A stretch of 45,900 bases of DNA from Gammaproteobacteria bacterium (GTDB lineage: Bacteria; Pseudomonadota; Gammaproteobacteria; SG8-11): positions 1 to 45,900 of the forward strand of contig JAADIM010000123.1 of assembly GCA_013151345.1 (NCBI GenBank). Reading direction: 5' to 3'. This document shows, piece by piece, positions 9,558-45,900 of the stretch. The number at the start of each line of letters is the position of its first letter. Within the stretch, counting starts at the first letter, position 1. Both the position numbers and the translations under genes were made by a program. The notes under the pieces were generated by a model. The model was given only the letters and a program-made list of their open reading frames with translations. It was not told the DNA's origin and did not search any database.

Positions 9558-9617
9558 ATAAAACATAGCTTTATAAAACAGAGCTTTATAAAACGTAGCT
9601 TTATAAAATATAGCGAC
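9558..9617. repeat. Four tandem 15-bp units over the hslU stop
   Basis: Units ATAAAACATAGCTTT (9558), ATAAAACAGAGCTTT (9573), ATAAAACGTAGCTTT (9588) and a diverged ATAAAATATAGCGAC (9603). The last unit holds the final codons and stop of hslU on the minus strand, so the other three look like slippage copies of the gene end extending into the spacer before DUF971. Confidence 0.85.
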
Positions 9618-10980: not shown

Positions 10981-11526
10981 TTATTCTTCAATTTCCAATT
11001 CTTCTATCGTAAGATTATGGTTGGTATATATACAAATATCGGCGGCGATATTTAAGCTTTTTTCAACAATCGTGCGCGCATCTAATTGCGTCTCGGCCAA
11101 CATGGCCATGGCAGCCGATTTAGCATATTGACCACCTGAACCTATTGCGATTAAACCTTCTTCAGGCTCAATGACATCGCCATTTCCTGAAATGATAAGC
11201 GAGGCTTTTGTATCCGCGACGGTGAGCAAGGCTTCCAATCGTCGCAATGACCTTTCTGTTCGCCAGTCTTTAGCTAATTCAACTGCTGCACGGGTAAGGT
11301 TTCCCGAGTATTTTTCGAGCTTACCTTCAAAACGTTCAAATAAAGTAAATGCATCTGCCGTCGCACCGGCAAAACCAGCGATGACTTTTTCATTATATAA
11401 ACGCCGAACTTTACGTGCATTGCCCTTCATAATGGTATCACCCATTGAAACCTGGCCGTCGCCACCGATGACGACTTTATTGCCACGCCGTACCGATAAT
11501 ATTGTTGTACCCCTGAAATCGTTCAA
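10981..11526 (-). CDS. hslV: HslV, peptidase subunit of the HslVU protease
   Basis: A 181-residue Ntn-hydrolase threonine protease. After removal of MNDFRG the catalytic Thr starts [23 protein letters not shown], exactly as in the family. [17 protein letters not shown] and [15 protein letters not shown] are further proteasome-beta-like signatures. HslV forms the dodecameric chamber capped by HslU. The gene is first of the hslVU pair; about 400 non-coding bases with tandem repeats and a half palindromic element separate it from xerC, so its promoter probably lies there. Confidence 0.97.
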
Positions 11527-11598
11527 AAGTTAACTTCCTAATTTTGTTGCAAAAAAAAACATATTATTTACCATATTGCCTGCATCGCTATGCTAACT

Positions 11599-11650
11599 AT
11601 ATGCATTGCTTATATGCATTGCTTATATGCATTGCTTATATGCGTTACTT
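11599..11650. repeat. Four tandem 13-bp ATATGCATTGCTT units
   Basis: Three perfect copies (11599, 11612, 11625) and one with two changes (11638), each containing the palindrome ATGCAT. They lie about 70-125 bases upstream of hslV on its 5' side, in the xerC-hslV gap, where they could alter promoter spacing. Copy number is the kind that varies by slippage. Confidence 0.9.
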
Positions 11651-11787
11651 ACTGGCATAGCATCGAGCTGAGATTGTACACCATCCCAACAACTTATAAA
11701 GCAAACCCGCCCGCAGGGTGCAAAGGGTGCAAAAGCTGAAATGCGGGCAAAACTACAAAATTCAAGGTGAAATAACCTGACCCGCAA

Positions 11788-11889
11788 TGACATTCCTCGC
11801 AATAGTCCCGCTATTACTCGTCATGTCGCCTTGCCATGAAATGAATAGGGCACACTCTTAACACCTAGATCTCAAACGCTACGGGTATA
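11788..11889 (-). repeat. Half copy of the 162-bp palindromic element (family 1)
   Basis: Read on the minus strand from 11889 it gives TATACCCGTAGCGTTTGAGA, then the shared TTTCATGGCAAGGCGACATG and AGTAATAGCGGGACTATTGC segments, and stops matching the complete copy (35986-36147) after GAGGAATGTCA. Only one half of the palindrome is present; the sequence beyond is unrelated. It is nearly identical to the copy at the right edge of the window. It sits in the otherwise gene-free stretch 11527-11934. Confidence 0.85.
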
Positions 11890-11934: not shown

Positions 11935-12834
11935 CTATTTACGTCTAGCTCTGGGGTGGGCTTTGTCGTAAATTCGGGCAAGGTGTTGAAAATCCAAATG
12001 TGTGTATATTTGAGTGGTAAAAATATCCGCATGCCCAAGCAATTCTTGTACTGCTCTCAAATCGCCACTTGATTCCAACAAATGACTCGCAAAAGAGTGG
12101 CGAAGTTTATGTGGATAGACATTGCTATCCAGTCCCTGCTTCACTCCCCATTCTTTCATTCGGATCTCTACAGCACGTCGCGAAATACGCGCACCGCGTT
12201 TACTCACAAAGAGTGCGGGTTCATCCATTAGTACCATGTTGCCCCTGGCATGCATCCAGTCGATAATCGCTTCTTTTGCAAATTTACCGACGGGCACAAT
12301 ACGTGTTTTTGCCCCCTTACCTGTTACACGCACCTCGGCTTGCGCTAAATCAATATCACCCAAATCCACGGACACAAGTTCCGCCAAGCGCAATCCAGAA
12401 GAATACATTAATTCGATCATGGCTTTATCACGTATCGATAACAAATCGTCTGCCGGAATATTTAGCAGCTTTGGAACCTGATCAACATCCAGAGTCTGTG
12501 GTAACTTCCGCGCGGTTTTCGGCGCGCTAACACTCACGGCCGGACTTTTGTTGACGACGTTCTCTCGCTCCAGGAACTTAAAAAACGACCGTAAAGTAGA
12601 TAGCTCGCGTTGCAAACTTCGACCACTTAATCCTCCTCGATGCCGCTGGCTAATATATGCGCGCACATCGTGTACATTCAAATCTTTCCACGCGGCAATT
12701 TGCTTATTTCGGCAAAAGACGACAACCTTGTTCAGATCTCTGGCATAGTTACTTACTGTATGGCCTGACAATCGACGCTCAGCTTGCAGATAATTAATAA
12801 ACTGACTTACCCACTCAATTTCGTTTGTATCCAT
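11935..12834 (-). CDS. xerC: XerC, tyrosine recombinase for chromosome dimer resolution
   Basis: A 299-residue recombinase from the ATG at 12834 (MDTNEIEWVSQFINYL); the longer ORF start at 12981 adds 49 unlikely residues. Catalytic residues are visible in order: Arg in SSGLRLAELVSV, His-x-x-Arg in YPHKLRHSFASHLL, and Tyr in TTQIYTHLDF. With XerD it resolves chromosome dimers at dif. Length and the HPRARRK-type tail match XerC rather than XerD, and the neighbours dapF and DUF484 are the standard XerC context. Confidence 0.95.
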   Translation of the reverse strand: MDTNEIEWVSQFINYLQAERRLSGHTVSNYARDLNKVVVFCRNKQIAAWKDLNVHDVRAYISQRHRGGLSGRSLQRELSTLRSFFKFLERENVVNKSPAVSVSAPKTARKLPQTLDVDQVPKLLNIPADDLLSIRDKAMIELMYSSGLRLAELVSVDLGDIDLAQAEVRVTGKGAKTRIVPVGKFAKEAIIDWMHARGNMVLMDEPALFVSKRGARISRRAVEIRMKEWGVKQGLDSNVYPHKLRHSFASHLLESSGDLRAVQELLGHADIFTTQIYTHLDFQHLARIYDKAHPRARRK

Positions 12835-13000
12835 TATACTTGGCTTCTTATTCTTTCTTGTCAGCAAGAGTAATTTGAGGGTACAACTACGACATGGCTT
12901 CGCACTTAGATCGGCACAACTTACGATCGGAACAACATAGACCGGAACAACAAGAGCGGAACTTAAACAAAAGCATAGCAAACGTTACTTAAAACACCAC

Positions 13001-22104: not shown

Positions 22105-23322
22105 ATGAGAATCGTACTACTCGGCGCACCAGGCTCAGGCAAAGGAACCCAGGCAAAACGTCTGGTTGAAAAATATAATGTGCCTCAAATTTCGACGGGC
22201 GATTTACTGCGGGCTGCAGTACAAGAGAATACTGAATTAGGCATACAAGCTAAAGCAGCTATCGATGCAGGACAATTTGTTTCAGACTCCATCGTACTTG
22301 CAATGATAGAAGAACGCTTAAAAAGCGCCGATACAGATAGCGGCTTCATTCTAGATGGCTTCCCTCGCAACCTCCTCCAGGCAGAAGAACTCAATACAAT
22401 GCTGGACGAGTTGAACAAACCAATGCAGGCTGCTATTTTGATCGCGGTTGATTTCGATGTCATTATTGAAAGAACAACCGGACGTCGTACCTGTGAGTCT
22501 TGCGGACAATTGTATAATATTTATACTAACCCGTCAAAACTAGAAGACCAGTGTGATCACTGTGGCGGCAATCTACATCATCGCTCAGATGATAATGAAG
22601 AAACGATTAGCAACCGCCTAAGAATTTACGAAGCCCAAACCACACCTCTTATAGCCTATTACAGAAACAAGAACATGCTTCGAACAGTCCAGGGAGTTGG
22701 CGACGTATCGGAAATATTTGATGAGCTGTGTAATGTCGTTGATGAATTACCGGAAGAAGCCATTGAAACCATGTTTACTGCGCCCGACGTGGATCTACCT
22801 GATACACCAAGGCCGGTATACCAGGAACCAGATGACGATGACGACGACGATGTGGTAGCAGCAGAAACAGAAGATGAAGAAGATGAAGAGAATGAAGAGA
22901 ATGAAGAAGAGATAAAAGAGGAAGTATCTACACCTGCGCCCGTTAAGAAGAAAACAACTAAAAAGGCGGCTAAGAAAAAGACAGCCAAGAAAACAGCAGC
23001 TAAAAAGACGACCTCAAAGAAAACAGCTAAAAAGTCGGCGGTCAAAAAGAAAGCAGTCAAGAAAAAGACTAAAAAAGCCACTACGAAAAAAGCGGTTAAG
23101 AAAAAAGCGATAAAGAAGAAAGTCGCCAAGAAAAAGGCAGCCAAAAAGACGAACAAGAAAAAAGTGACTAAGAAGAAAGCAGCTAAAAAAACCACTACGA
23201 AAAAAACGACTAAGAAAAAAGCAGCGAAGAAAAAAGTAGCAAAGAAGAAAGCGGCTAAGAAAAAAGTGACTAAAAAGAAAACCAAGAAAAAAGCAGCTAA
23301 AAAGACAATCAAAAAGCGCTAA
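22105..23322 (+). CDS. adk: Adenylate kinase fused to an acidic linker and histone-H1-like lysine tail
   Basis: Residues 1-213 are a complete adenylate kinase (ATP + AMP to 2 ADP): P-loop GAPGSGKGTQ at 7-16, DGFPRN at 84, and a lid with a zinc site formed by Cys 130, 133, 150 and 153 (CESCGQLY, CDHCGG). Family members normally end near residue 215. Here one uninterrupted frame continues with an acidic stretch (about 241-274, DDDDDDD and EEDEENEENEEE) and then about 125 residues of almost pure Lys/Ala/Thr repeats (KKAAKKK types) to residue 405, resembling histone H1 or bacterial AlgP/HctB-like tails. The tail should bind nucleic acid or another polyanion. No stop or start separates the parts, so the fusion is seen directly; its role is inference. 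Confidence 0.92.
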   Translation: MRIVLLGAPGSGKGTQAKRLVEKYNVPQISTGDLLRAAVQENTELGIQAKAAIDAGQFVSDSIVLAMIEERLKSADTDSGFILDGFPRNLLQAEELNTMLDELNKPMQAAILIAVDFDVIIERTTGRRTCESCGQLYNIYTNPSKLEDQCDHCGGNLHHRSDDNEETISNRLRIYEAQTTPLIAYYRNKNMLRTVQGVGDVSEIFDELCNVVDELPEEAIETMFTAPDVDLPDTPRPVYQEPDDDDDDDVVAAETEDEEDEENEENEEEIKEEVSTPAPVKKKTTKKAAKKKTAKKTAAKKTTSKKTAKKSAVKKKAVKKKTKKATTKKAVKKKAIKKKVAKKKAAKKTNKKKVTKKKAAKKTTTKKTTKKKAAKKKVAKKKAAKKKVTKKKTKKKAAKKTIKKR

Positions 23323-33217: not shown

Positions 33218-35914
33218 ATGAAGCGGTCTACTATTCATAAGAGAATGAACCGCCGGGAATTTATCAAAACCAGCGGATATATTACCGGCTCTGCCGCAGG
33301 CTTAGGCCTGTATTTATCTGACAATCCTGAACTCGAAGCCGCGCCGCAAGAAATAAAAGACTCCGAAGTAGACGCCCAGGTACTTGCCGCTTGCCCATAT
33401 TGTGGCGTGGGTTGCGGTACGATTATTCAAGTTAGGAATCGAAAAATCGTGTCAATGCGCCCCGACAAGGACCACCCCACCAACTACGGGCTGCAGTGCA
33501 TAAAAGGGATGACCGCCGCCGAACCCATTTATGTTGACCGCATGGAGGGTGATAGTTATGTGCGCAAGGATGTTTGGGACGAATGGGAGAAACCCAATCA
33601 TGGTGATTTAGATTACGTCAGTAAAACCAAAGGCTCTTTTGATGAAAAGCATTTCGTACGTGTACCTTATGAAGAAGCGTCCGACATGGTGTCGCACAAA
33701 ATAGCGCATCTCGCAAAAAAATATGGCGGCAACTCAATCGCACTTTATGGTTCCGGCCAACTTACTGTTGAAGGACAGTATCTTGAAAACCTATTTATGA
33801 AAGGTGTTTTGGGCTCAAATACAATAGAAGCCAATGCACGTATGTGTATGACATCCGCCGTTACCGGTTATTTTGCGACATTAGGTTCTGATACCCCTCC
33901 ATTGGCTTACGAAGACATTGAACTCTCTGACATGGTGATGCACTTCGGACACAATGCACGCGAATCACATCCCATTATCTATTGGCGCATAGCCGACCAT
34001 AAAAAGAAAAAAGACATCTCGACAGTGGTTGTTGATCCTCGCTACACAGGCACCAGCAAGGGTTACGATGACATTAATTCCAAAAACCAGGTACACATAC
34101 CCATCCTCAACGGCGATATAAGTTTTCTAAATGCGATTGCCCATGTATTACTTAAAGAACATAAAGACGTTATCGACTGGGAGTTTATGAAAAAGCACAC
34201 CACCGGGTGGGAAAATTATACCCAAGGTGTACTGGCACGCTACAGCCCAGAACAAGTCCAGGACCGAATGGGAGGCAAAAATCACGACGTCTCACCCGCG
34301 CTTATTCGACGTGTCGCAGGCATGTATGCTGATGCTACGCGTAAACGCTTAGCCAGAGGCAAAGATGGTCACGGCGGGGTCATCATCATGTGGGGAATCG
34401 GTTATAATCAGCATATACACGGGCAACATAATGTTATCTCCATCATTAACCTGCTCACTATGACCGGCGACCTGGCAAAACCCGGTTGTGGCCCCTTTTC
34501 CATGACTGGCCAACCTAATGCTATGGGTGAACGTTTCACTGGCGGCCTCACTGGACGATTACCCTTTAATCAACCCTTAAAAAATGACACTCATCGACTC
34601 AAAATGGCAAAAGCCTGGCGCGTACCGGAAAAAAATCTAAAACAGGCAATGAATTCCGAAAATCCGGGATACGCAGTCGGCATGATGGAGCGCGCATTGA
34701 AAGATGAAGTAAAAGCCATGTTTTTTGTTTATGCTACGCACATTGATTTACCTGATCTACACAATCTTGTTCGACCTGCGATTTCCAAAACATTTAATGT
34801 TGTCCAGGAAATTTACCGACACGCACCCAATAATCTGTATGCTGACGTCATTTTCCCTGCGGCCACCTGGGGTGAAGTTCAGGGCGTTTACATCAATTCG
34901 GAACGCCGGATCTATGTCGTTGATAAAGCCGCTAACCCGCCACTCGGTTGCCGCCCGGATATGGACATGGTCATCGACAAAGGCCGGGAGATTGCTAACT
35001 TGTTAGGCATGGACGGTGATAAGATTTTTCCATGGAAACGCTTGCCTAATGGCGACTACGATTCGGAAGAAATTTTTCGTGAAATTATCATGGCCTCCAA
35101 AGACACCGACACTGATTTGACCGGTATTCTTGCCGTCGAGGAAAAAGACAACATCAGCCCTTATCAACAAATACGCAACTTACGTGGCATTCAATGGCCG
35201 GCACCGACGTATATGTTAGCGAAAACCGGCGGTGCGACCCGGCGATATATGGCGCAAGAAGGAATATGGGAAAACCGCCCCTACGGTTATTTTCGCACCA
35301 ATGATGGAAAAGCACATATTAAACTGTGCGAGCAGGATTATTCGCAACGTAAAGAGATTACCAAACAGCTAATGGAATTTGGTGCCGTCGCAGGTAAATA
35401 TACTATCGATAATATACCTTTGTTAAAAAAAGCACGGGATATGGCGCTTACCCCGGATTTACCAGATGAAGAACACCGAAACAAGGCCTGGGCAAAGATT
35501 CCAAAAGACAAATATCCGTATTGGTTAGGACTAGGGGTTGTCTATGAACATTTCCATACGGCTAAATCAAACCGCAGTCCAACGACGCAACGCCTAGTGC
35601 CGGAAATGTATGTCGAAATGCACCCGGATGACGCAGCCGATTTAAAAATAATAGATGGCGACATAGTAAAACTTATCACTAGACGCGGTTCGTTTGAGGC
35701 ACGCGCTTCAGTGGGCACCAATACATTAATCAAACCCGCACGCAATAACGTACCCCGAGGGTATATGTTTAGCCCTTGGAATTTATCAGTGGCGGATAGT
35801 GCGGACCCGGCAAAAAACAAATGGCTGGTCAATGGCACATCATCTCGTATTTGGGATGTAGTCTCTGGTCAAGTAGATTTTAAGAAACTTGCCGTTCGAA
35901 TCGAAAAGGTTTAG
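33218..35914 (+). CDS. Tat-exported NapA/NasA-type molybdopterin oxidoreductase, substrate unknown
   Basis: 898 residues. A twin-arginine signal (NRREFIKTSGY) directs the folded enzyme to the periplasm. One [4Fe-4S] cluster is bound by Cys 59, 62, 66 and 94 (CPYCGVGCG ... GLQCIKG). Cys 210 in ANARMCMTSAVTGY is the expected molybdenum ligand, the same place and context as in assimilatory NasA and periplasmic NapA. FSMTGQPNAMGERFTGG, NSERR and the C-terminal molybdopterin-binding domain complete the family picture. An extra charged segment at about 118-146 has no counterpart I know in NapA. The gene has GGAGG eight bases upstream. No napB, napC or napD is adjacent; cytochrome c lies before it and NapG/NapH-like genes after it. 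Nitrate is a possible, not a proven, substrate. Confidence 0.85.
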   Translation: MKRSTIHKRMNRREFIKTSGYITGSAAGLGLYLSDNPELEAAPQEIKDSEVDAQVLAACPYCGVGCGTIIQVRNRKIVSMRPDKDHPTNYGLQCIKGMTAAEPIYVDRMEGDSYVRKDVWDEWEKPNHGDLDYVSKTKGSFDEKHFVRVPYEEASDMVSHKIAHLAKKYGGNSIALYGSGQLTVEGQYLENLFMKGVLGSNTIEANARMCMTSAVTGYFATLGSDTPPLAYEDIELSDMVMHFGHNARESHPIIYWRIADHKKKKDISTVVVDPRYTGTSKGYDDINSKNQVHIPILNGDISFLNAIAHVLLKEHKDVIDWEFMKKHTTGWENYTQGVLARYSPEQVQDRMGGKNHDVSPALIRRVAGMYADATRKRLARGKDGHGGVIIMWGIGYNQHIHGQHNVISIINLLTMTGDLAKPGCGPFSMTGQPNAMGERFTGGLTGRLPFNQPLKNDTHRLKMAKAWRVPEKNLKQAMNSENPGYAVGMMERALKDEVKAMFFVYATHIDLPDLHNLVRPAISKTFNVVQEIYRHAPNNLYADVIFPAATWGEVQGVYINSERRIYVVDKAANPPLGCRPDMDMVIDKGREIANLLGMDGDKIFPWKRLPNGDYDSEEIFREIIMASKDTDTDLTGILAVEEKDNISPYQQIRNLRGIQWPAPTYMLAKTGGATRRYMAQEGIWENRPYGYFRTNDGKAHIKLCEQDYSQRKEITKQLMEFGAVAGKYTIDNIPLLKKARDMALTPDLPDEEHRNKAWAKIPKDKYPYWLGLGVVYEHFHTAKSNRSPTTQRLVPEMYVEMHPDDAADLKIIDGDIVKLITRRGSFEARASVGTNTLIKPARNNVPRGYMFSPWNLSVADSADPAKNKWLVNGTSSRIWDVVSGQVDFKKLAVRIEKV

Positions 35915-35985
35915 CAAACATTTAGCAAACAAAGGCAAATATATTATATAGCATCTAATACATTGTAACTATTACACGGTGGCTA

Positions 35986-36147
35986 TACCCGTGGCGTTTG
36001 GGATTTAGGTGTAAATGTGCGTCCTATTTATTTCATGGCAAGGCGAAATGACGAGTAATAGTCGCTCTATTTATTGCGAGGAATTTCAACGCAGCCATGG
36101 AATAAAGAGGGCGTGCAGTTACACCTAAATCTCAATCGCTACGGGTA
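35986..36147. mobile_element. Complete 162-bp palindromic MITE-like element (family 1)
   Basis: The ends TACCCGTGGCGTTTGGGATT and AATCTCAATCGCTACGGGTA are inverted copies, and the match goes on inward through GATTTAGGTGTAA, TTTATTTCATGGC / GCCATGGAATAAA and part of the centre, so the whole element folds into one long imperfect hairpin. There is no ORF. It is inserted between the molybdoenzyme and ferredoxin genes of the respiratory locus, flanked by TA-rich sequence. Half or edge copies occur at 11788-11889 and 45813-45900. Confidence 0.85.
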
Positions 36148-36202
36148 CATTACATAATAGCTATAACATAGTAGCTATAATCTAGTAGCGAGGAGCAAAA
36201 TA

Positions 36203-36790
36203 ATGGACCGTCGAGTTTTCTGGAAAGTTTTATCTGGTAGCGGATTAGCAGCGCTTATCGCCAAAACCGGTTTCGCAGCAAATACCCGCACAACATCACG
36301 CTTTTTACGTCCACCCGGCGCGCTTGCCGAAGATGATTTTCTGGATCACTGCATTCGCTGTGGAAAATGTGGCGAAAGTTGTCCAAACGAAACTATCAAA
36401 TTTTTTAATTTTGAAAATGGTTTATCGTCCTTAAATACACCCTATATCGTTCCGCGCGAAAAACCGTGCATCTTATGTATGAAGTGTGGGGAAGTGTGCC
36501 CTACTGGCGCGATTAAAAATATATTGCATGATGCAGAAACGATAATGAACAACGTGAAAATGGGCAAGGCTGTTATCAACAAGGATCTATGCTTGTCCTA
36601 CCAGGGAAAAAGCTGTGGTGTATGTTATCGCGCCTGCCCGCTTCCAGATGTCGCGATGACTGTTGGCTATATGGAACAACCTACAATGACTGATGCCTGT
36701 GTCGGCTGCGGTATCTGTGAACGAGCATGTATACAAATGCCACAAGCGATCAAAGTTCTACCTACTACTACGCAGCGAGCCCACTCTTGA
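36203..36790 (+). CDS. NapG/MauM-like ferredoxin with four [4Fe-4S] clusters
   Basis: 195 residues with an N-terminal Tat-like leader (DRRVFWKVLSGSGLAALIA). Sixteen cysteines form four clusters: 50/53/56/60, 89/92/95/99, 130/138/141/145 (the spaced CLSYQGKSCGVCYRAC form) and 166/169/172/176. This arrangement is that of NapG, which with membrane NapH passes electrons from quinol to periplasmic nitrate reductase. GAGGAG precedes the ATG. The stop overlaps the start of the NapH-like gene. It is separated from the molybdoenzyme by the palindromic element, which may disturb co-transcription. Confidence 0.9.
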   Translation: MDRRVFWKVLSGSGLAALIAKTGFAANTRTTSRFLRPPGALAEDDFLDHCIRCGKCGESCPNETIKFFNFENGLSSLNTPYIVPREKPCILCMKCGEVCPTGAIKNILHDAETIMNNVKMGKAVINKDLCLSYQGKSCGVCYRACPLPDVAMTVGYMEQPTMTDACVGCGICERACIQMPQAIKVLPTTTQRAHS

Positions 36791-45345: not shown

Positions 45346-45400
45346 GTGTGGTGATCATGTTAAATTCATCAGTTGAAATTTCCGTTCCTCGATAACTGCT

Positions 45401-45520
45401 CCGGCGCAAATTAACGTCAACATTGAAATCAAAGGAATCAGTGGCGCTCTTGCCGATAACGTCCGTCTGTTTCTAAGCATCGAACAACAAAAAACGCATA
45501 GCGCACTGAGTGAAACTTCA
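45401..45520 (+). pseudogene. TamA-like N-terminal (POTRA) fragment
   Basis: An open frame reads PAQINVNIEIKGISGALADN then VRLFLSIEQQKTHSALSE. This is the start of POTRA 1 in TamA/Omp85-type assembly proteins (I.G..G.L..NV...LSIEQQ...LSE). A stop lies a short way upstream, no signal peptide is left, and the homology ends about 10 bases before the end of the next, antisense gene. Fragment of about 40 codons only. Confidence 0.5.
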
Positions 45521-45814: not shown

Positions 45815-45900
45815 TACCCGTAGCGTTTGAGATTTAGGTGTTAAGAGTGCGCTCTATTCATTTCATGGCAAGGCGACATGACGAGTAATAGCGGGACTAT
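45815..45900 (+). repeat. Family 1 palindromic element, copy cut by window edge
   Basis: Begins TACCCGTAGCGTTTGAGATT and reads through TTTCATGGCAAGGCGACATG to GCGGGACTAT at the last base. It is almost identical to the half copy at 11788-11889 and about 85 percent like the left arm of the complete copy. Whether the second arm follows cannot be seen. It directly abuts the truncated SRPBCC gene. Confidence 0.85.

Follow-up and report, generated by a model that had tools for sequence, protein, structure and literature searches.

Structure and surroundings of the window element

The DNA analysed here, referred to as the window, is a stretch of 45,900 nucleotides from a draft gammaproteobacterial genome. 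Between the genes for a NapA-like molybdopterin oxidoreductase (33218-35914) and a NapG-like ferredoxin (36203-36790), it carries on the plus strand a complete 162-nt copy (35986-36147) of a MITE, with about 26 copies in the genome. An earlier sequence-only reading had proposed a 162-bp palindrome at exactly these coordinates, which hold, and had placed one copy inside a respiratory operon. The palindrome is imperfect, with outer arms of 54 nt that align without gaps and are 83% complementary. Folded as a single strand, the element reaches -91.6 kcal/mol, against -40.0 kcal/mol (sd 3.8) for its dinucleotide shuffles (z -13.7), and 0 of 200 shuffles fold as stably. Its end motif occurs four times in the window and is absent from shuffled sequence.

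Both ends carry a terminal inverted repeat of the form TACCCGTRGCG... The left repeat (TACCCGTGGCGTTTGGGATTTAGGTGTAA, 35986-36014, plus strand) and the right repeat (TACCCGTAGCGATTGAGATTTAGGTGTAA, 36119-36147, minus strand, read inward) match the right end of an IS630-family IS found in another genome (L190) at 24 and 27 of 29 positions, respectively. The TA directly outside the left repeat (35984-35985) is one half of a target duplication whose right partner (36148-36149) has decayed to CA. The description of the element as one long palindrome is right for the paired arms and wrong for its uniformity, since the centre (36033-36100) forms a separate conserved module. This module is a covarying core hairpin, recognised on the plus strand by the covariance model R1 (61.4 bits, E 2.7e-13) and common to MITEs with unrelated ends.

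Other repeats are present in the window. An unrelated inverted repeat with 29-nt arms, 86% complementary and containing GGGTCAGACTCGA, lies at 1049-1108 and may be a terminator or belong to a further dispersed palindrome. Short tandem repeats are found beside hslV at 11598-11662 (13-nt unit TATATGCATTGCT) and at 9558-9614 (15-nt unit ATAAAACATAGCTTT), and the 3' end of an ORF at 22948-23316 is repetitive and rich in lysine codons, with a 15-nt periodicity.

Further copies in the window and the genome

Two further copies announced by the sequence-only reading, one near hslV and one at a broken gene, are indeed present. The first is a truncated minus-strand copy that has lost one end (11788-11889), flanked by hslV (10981-11526) and by a gene for a tyrosine recombinase (11935-12981); its core is detected by R1 at 11776-11839 on the minus strand (48.7 bits). 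The second begins on the plus strand at 45815, leaves the window at 45900 and extends as far as contig position 46019; it includes an N gap and an insert of about 90 nt. The 5' half of its core, cut at the window end, still scores 30.9 bits (45863-45900, plus strand). This copy interrupts an ORF, and removing it together with one TA restores an open frame of 169 codons.

Far from being limited to these three copies, the element occupies about 26 places in the genome, plus one solo end, as counted in a 2.18-Mb draft that is 68% complete. The solo end (C70:662) was considered as an IS end and rejected, having no adjoining transposase ORF; it is a remnant. Copies in this genome measure about 157-167 nt, or about 205-257 nt when they hold, at one precise position of the 3' half, the insert of about 90 nt. 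No ORF of at least 80 aa is listed within the element.

The insert, present in many copies, is itself a dispersed repeat, the second one here, and lies nested within the elements. Its sequence (TTCCGCTCCTCGGTAACTGCTCCTGCGTTACTC...) has matches of 83-89% identity in other genomes and elsewhere in the window. Examples are found in copies of the element's own genome (G000; L016 1604-1702 and L019 1604-1693), with further matches at L185 59-126, L169 626-672 and L162 41-99, and at about 45380-45406 of the window.

Evidence for movement in trans

An element with no ORF had been expected to be moved by something in trans, and its target sites and ends support this, as does its copy number. Among 20 copies examined with both flanks present, 17 have TA on both sides, the window copy being of the TA/CA type. 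One copy (L001) lies in a short tandem repeat in which the intact unit AAACTATGTTC can be compared with the filled unit AAACTA-[element]-TATGTTC, so that the TA duplication is directly visible. The orthologous site of the same-genus genome G001 lacks the element, its napA-napG pair (86% protein identity) being separated by a short gap.

A search with PF13358 for an IS630 transposase gave no match in the element's own draft genome, itself 68% complete. The genome G374 hosts many copies of the window element's family and also includes a complete 1131-bp IS630-family IS (L190 914-2044). Its frame of 347 codons encodes an IS630 transposase (NF033545, 212 bits for a cut-off of 100), and one of its ends, TACTCGTAGCGATTGAGAATTAGGTGTAA, agrees with the window copy's right end at 27 of 29 positions. 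A transposase with matching ends, called for by the sequence-only reading, was thus located in another genome. Because its ends match those of a complete IS630-family IS, the window element is, on its anatomy, classed as an IS630-type MITE that would be moved in trans. The IS630 transposase would recognise the ends of about 29 nt and insert the MITE at a TA, which is duplicated.

A conserved core hairpin

The relatives G001 and G004 match the element only in its middle, their ends being quite different. A degenerate pattern of this middle retrieves at least 114 stretches in GTDB contigs of several phyla; Gemmatimonadota, Thermoanaerobaculia, Desulfobacterales, Myxococcales and many Gammaproteobacteria, including Burkholderiales, are among the matches listed. 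The core thereby also appears in MAGs of phyla other than that of the Gammaproteobacteria. A few of these stretches, such as L113, probably match by chance. Distant blastn detected no core in plasmids, and the one match in viral contigs, whose flanks are not inverted repeats, was taken as chance.

The conserved core is a 64-nt sequence (GGCAAGGCG...AATAG...CTATT...CAACGCnGCC) forming 22 pairs with strong covariation. From its 5' side, it consists of GGC, an unpaired AAG, GCG and then a variable covarying stem; this is followed by an internal loop that is GA-rich on both sides and by AATAG/CTATT, and the 3' side returns through an unpaired CAA to CGC-n-GCC. In an alignment of 28 diverse cores, GCAAG-CG, AATAG, CTATT and CAACGC are near-invariant. 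The 22-pair structure is paired in 86% of cells, with 89 double-change cells, whereas none of 500 shuffles pairs as highly and slid structures pair in 25-45%.

The covariance model R1 detects the core in 111 of 369 sampled Gammaproteobacteria genomes at E<=1e-4, with E-values down to 1e-14; for 369 tests at this threshold, well under one genome is expected by chance, allowing for rough calibration. The window element could be a plain IS630-derived MITE whose core resembles those of other families by chance or low complexity, MITEs being common and short palindromes being able to look alike. Such a coincidence has a negligible probability, for 23 of the 369 genomes contain the exact core pattern and none contains the reversed one, a control that excludes chance similarity, as do the E-values.

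The chromosome of a member of the Longimicrobiales (G386) displays 72 core matches, some of them in head-to-tail arrays with a period of 171 nt (3738537-3739285, 67571-67806 and 2847049-2847456), an arrangement unusual for MITEs.

Independence of the core from the element ends

The core is independent of the ends that surround it. When 95 elements with clear arms were grouped by shared arm sequence, they fell into 23 clusters that are mutually unrelated. In Undibacterium, the ends of core-bearing MITEs (TAGAACTCATTTCATAAATA) are identical at 20 of 20 positions to those of a complete 839-bp IS5-family IS of the same genome. In Noviherbaspirillum, the ends of a core-bearing element match an IS630-family IS of its genome. 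Two DDE families that are unrelated to each other therefore have MITEs with this core, and the core was found in none of the autonomous IS630- and IS5-family ISs examined. Element length is constant whatever the ends, with a median of 164 nt and quartiles of 159-167 over 70 elements. The recurrence of one core across unrelated mini-transposons and phyla suggests an undescribed shared function.

Undibacterium also contains elements of about 270 nt in which two opposed cores lie between one pair of IS5-type ends (L076 6762-7031, L101 6884-7153 and L137 3345-3613).

Strand polarity and nature of the folded strand

Mismatches within the arms reveal which strand folds. The arms outside the core were aligned with all mismatches penalised equally and then read on the core strand. 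Since each mismatch becomes the other one on the opposite strand, G.T and A.C, as well as G.A and T.C, should be equally frequent if no single strand were selected. In 61 deduplicated elements, G.T was counted 171 times versus 53 for A.C (ratio 3.2), and G.A 120 times versus 32 for T.C (ratio 3.75). The same excess is obtained per arm cluster, G.T outnumbering A.C in 19 clusters and the reverse being true in 2 (p 2e-4), with 17 versus 1 for G.A over T.C (p 1e-4). Selection is thus strand-specific and acts on a folded single strand, the one reading GGCAAGGCG. The sequence-only reading, according to which RNA from either strand would form a very long hairpin, was partly right: the folding signal is confined to one strand, and it lacks the special preference for G.U expected of RNA.

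This polarity bears on the idea that the core is a functionless passenger spread between MITEs by recombination or template switching, its covariation being due to gene conversion between arms. In general, the arms of a palindrome are open to homogenisation, and recombination could carry a core from one family to another. Conversion would yield neither a polarity linked to the core and consistent over 23 arm clusters nor unpaired AAG and CAA held invariant across phyla, which makes a passenger rather improbable.

Whether the folded strand is DNA or RNA is a finer matter. The core could work as RNA, the hairpin transcript, own or read-through, being recognised by a ribonuclease or an RNA-binding protein that limits polar effects or makes a small RNA. 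Strand-specific pairing with many G.U-type pairs and a purine-rich internal loop would suit such a role, and sRNAs have been described from Coxiella MITEs (PMC5896051). Several observations speak against it and leave it unlikely, if still a serious contender: no Rfam family stands above threshold, the unrelated arms could hold no conserved promoter, no sense-strand bias is visible beside genes (18 versus 23), and the preference for G.A is as strong as that for G.T. In terms of mismatch stability, DNA would favour G.A as much as G.T, whereas RNA should favour G.U more. On this basis, folded single-stranded DNA is somewhat likelier than RNA, a modest argument that depends on energetics and mutational supply. 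The Rfam search, at gathering and permissive thresholds, returned only generic long-hairpin matches of miRNA type, far below threshold.

The position of the elements supports neither co-transcription with flanking genes nor exposure on the lagging strand. Among elements lying in tandem between genes, as judged by crude ORF calls, 18 have a sense and 23 an antisense core strand, which is no orientation bias. A replication-strand bias was not established either, the weak fit in a Longimicrobiales chromosome (38 of 53) being equalled by 17 of 500 random sets where GC skew is uninformative. Given both results, a link between the core's function and the element is likelier than one with the neighbouring genes.

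Relation to known systems

Like IS630-family (Tc1/mariner) MITEs of bacteria, the window element is short, non-coding and multicopy, with terminal inverted repeats that match an IS630 and a TA duplication. It differs from them by long arms that extend beyond the IS-derived ends, and by a core of non-IS sequence common to MITEs of other transposase families. The Undibacterium elements resemble IS5-family MITEs by their ends (20/20 to the same-genome IS5-family IS), but hold the core of IS630-type MITEs, and several of those examined have two opposed copies of it.

The integron attC sites provide a lead, and only that, as their structure is kept over their sequence, with strand polarity and unpaired bases at fixed places. 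In contrast, core elements lie outside cassette arrays and have DDE-type ends and a TA duplication, and no attC-type recombination sites were noticed in them.

Imperfect, strand-specific hairpins that are intergenic and multicopy are also typical of REP, BIME and REPIN sequences with their RAYT. The core could be a REP-like hairpin that belongs to a Y1 (HUH) transposase, for example RAYT, and is carried along by MITEs: it is irregular and strand-specific, and Y1_Tnp matches are found in about 94 of the 111 core-bearing genomes versus 241 of 369 overall. The GTAG/CGTC tag defined for REPs (PMC3733652) was not found beside the core, and the core elements are about 160 nt long and duplicate TA. 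Dependence on Y1_Tnp was rejected, as about 17 of the 111 core-bearing genomes have no match to PF01797, several of these genomes being 99-100% complete. A Y1 transposase is thus not required, and this origin is very unlikely.

The Coxiella elements QMITE1 and QMITE2 also form very stable hairpins but have duplications of 2-3 or 7-11 nt; the core motif CAAGGCG is absent from the main text of that paper (PMC5896051). The core is likewise not described in the available text of the Thiomargarita and Coxiella MITE papers. Taken alone, the window element is a new representative of an established class. Neither Rfam nor the open-access literature yielded a core common to several MITE families, ISfinder and subscription papers lying outside the scope of the search.

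Proposed function and significance

The core inside the ends is not IS630 sequence and recurs in MITEs with IS5 and other unrelated ends. Together with the arms, it would function as a single strand, folded, constant in polarity and about 160 nt long. A putative outside factor, from the host or acting in trans, may recognise this strand, so that the MITE is more likely to be copied or tolerated. The combination of an IS630-type MITE, probably mobilised by an IS630 transposase as its anatomy indicates, with a core and arms recognised as a folded strand that aids propagation is the explanation favoured here, with reasonable though far from full confidence. A more tentative extension, somewhat doubtful at present, is that one hairpin module serves across phyla as a general MITE accessory. 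It would not depend on which transposase moves the MITE (IS630, IS5 and probably others) and would act as a strand-specific folded strand, with a putative widespread host or trans factor promoting copying or tolerance.

In the usual view, a MITE is a decayed IS with nothing but filler inside. A structured core kept across phyla, in MITEs of two unrelated DDE families, indicates that the interior of a MITE can be under its own selection. The covariance model of the core offers a ready means to find and classify such elements. The shared core points to a common putative partner, and which partner recognises the folded core strand becomes a testable question.
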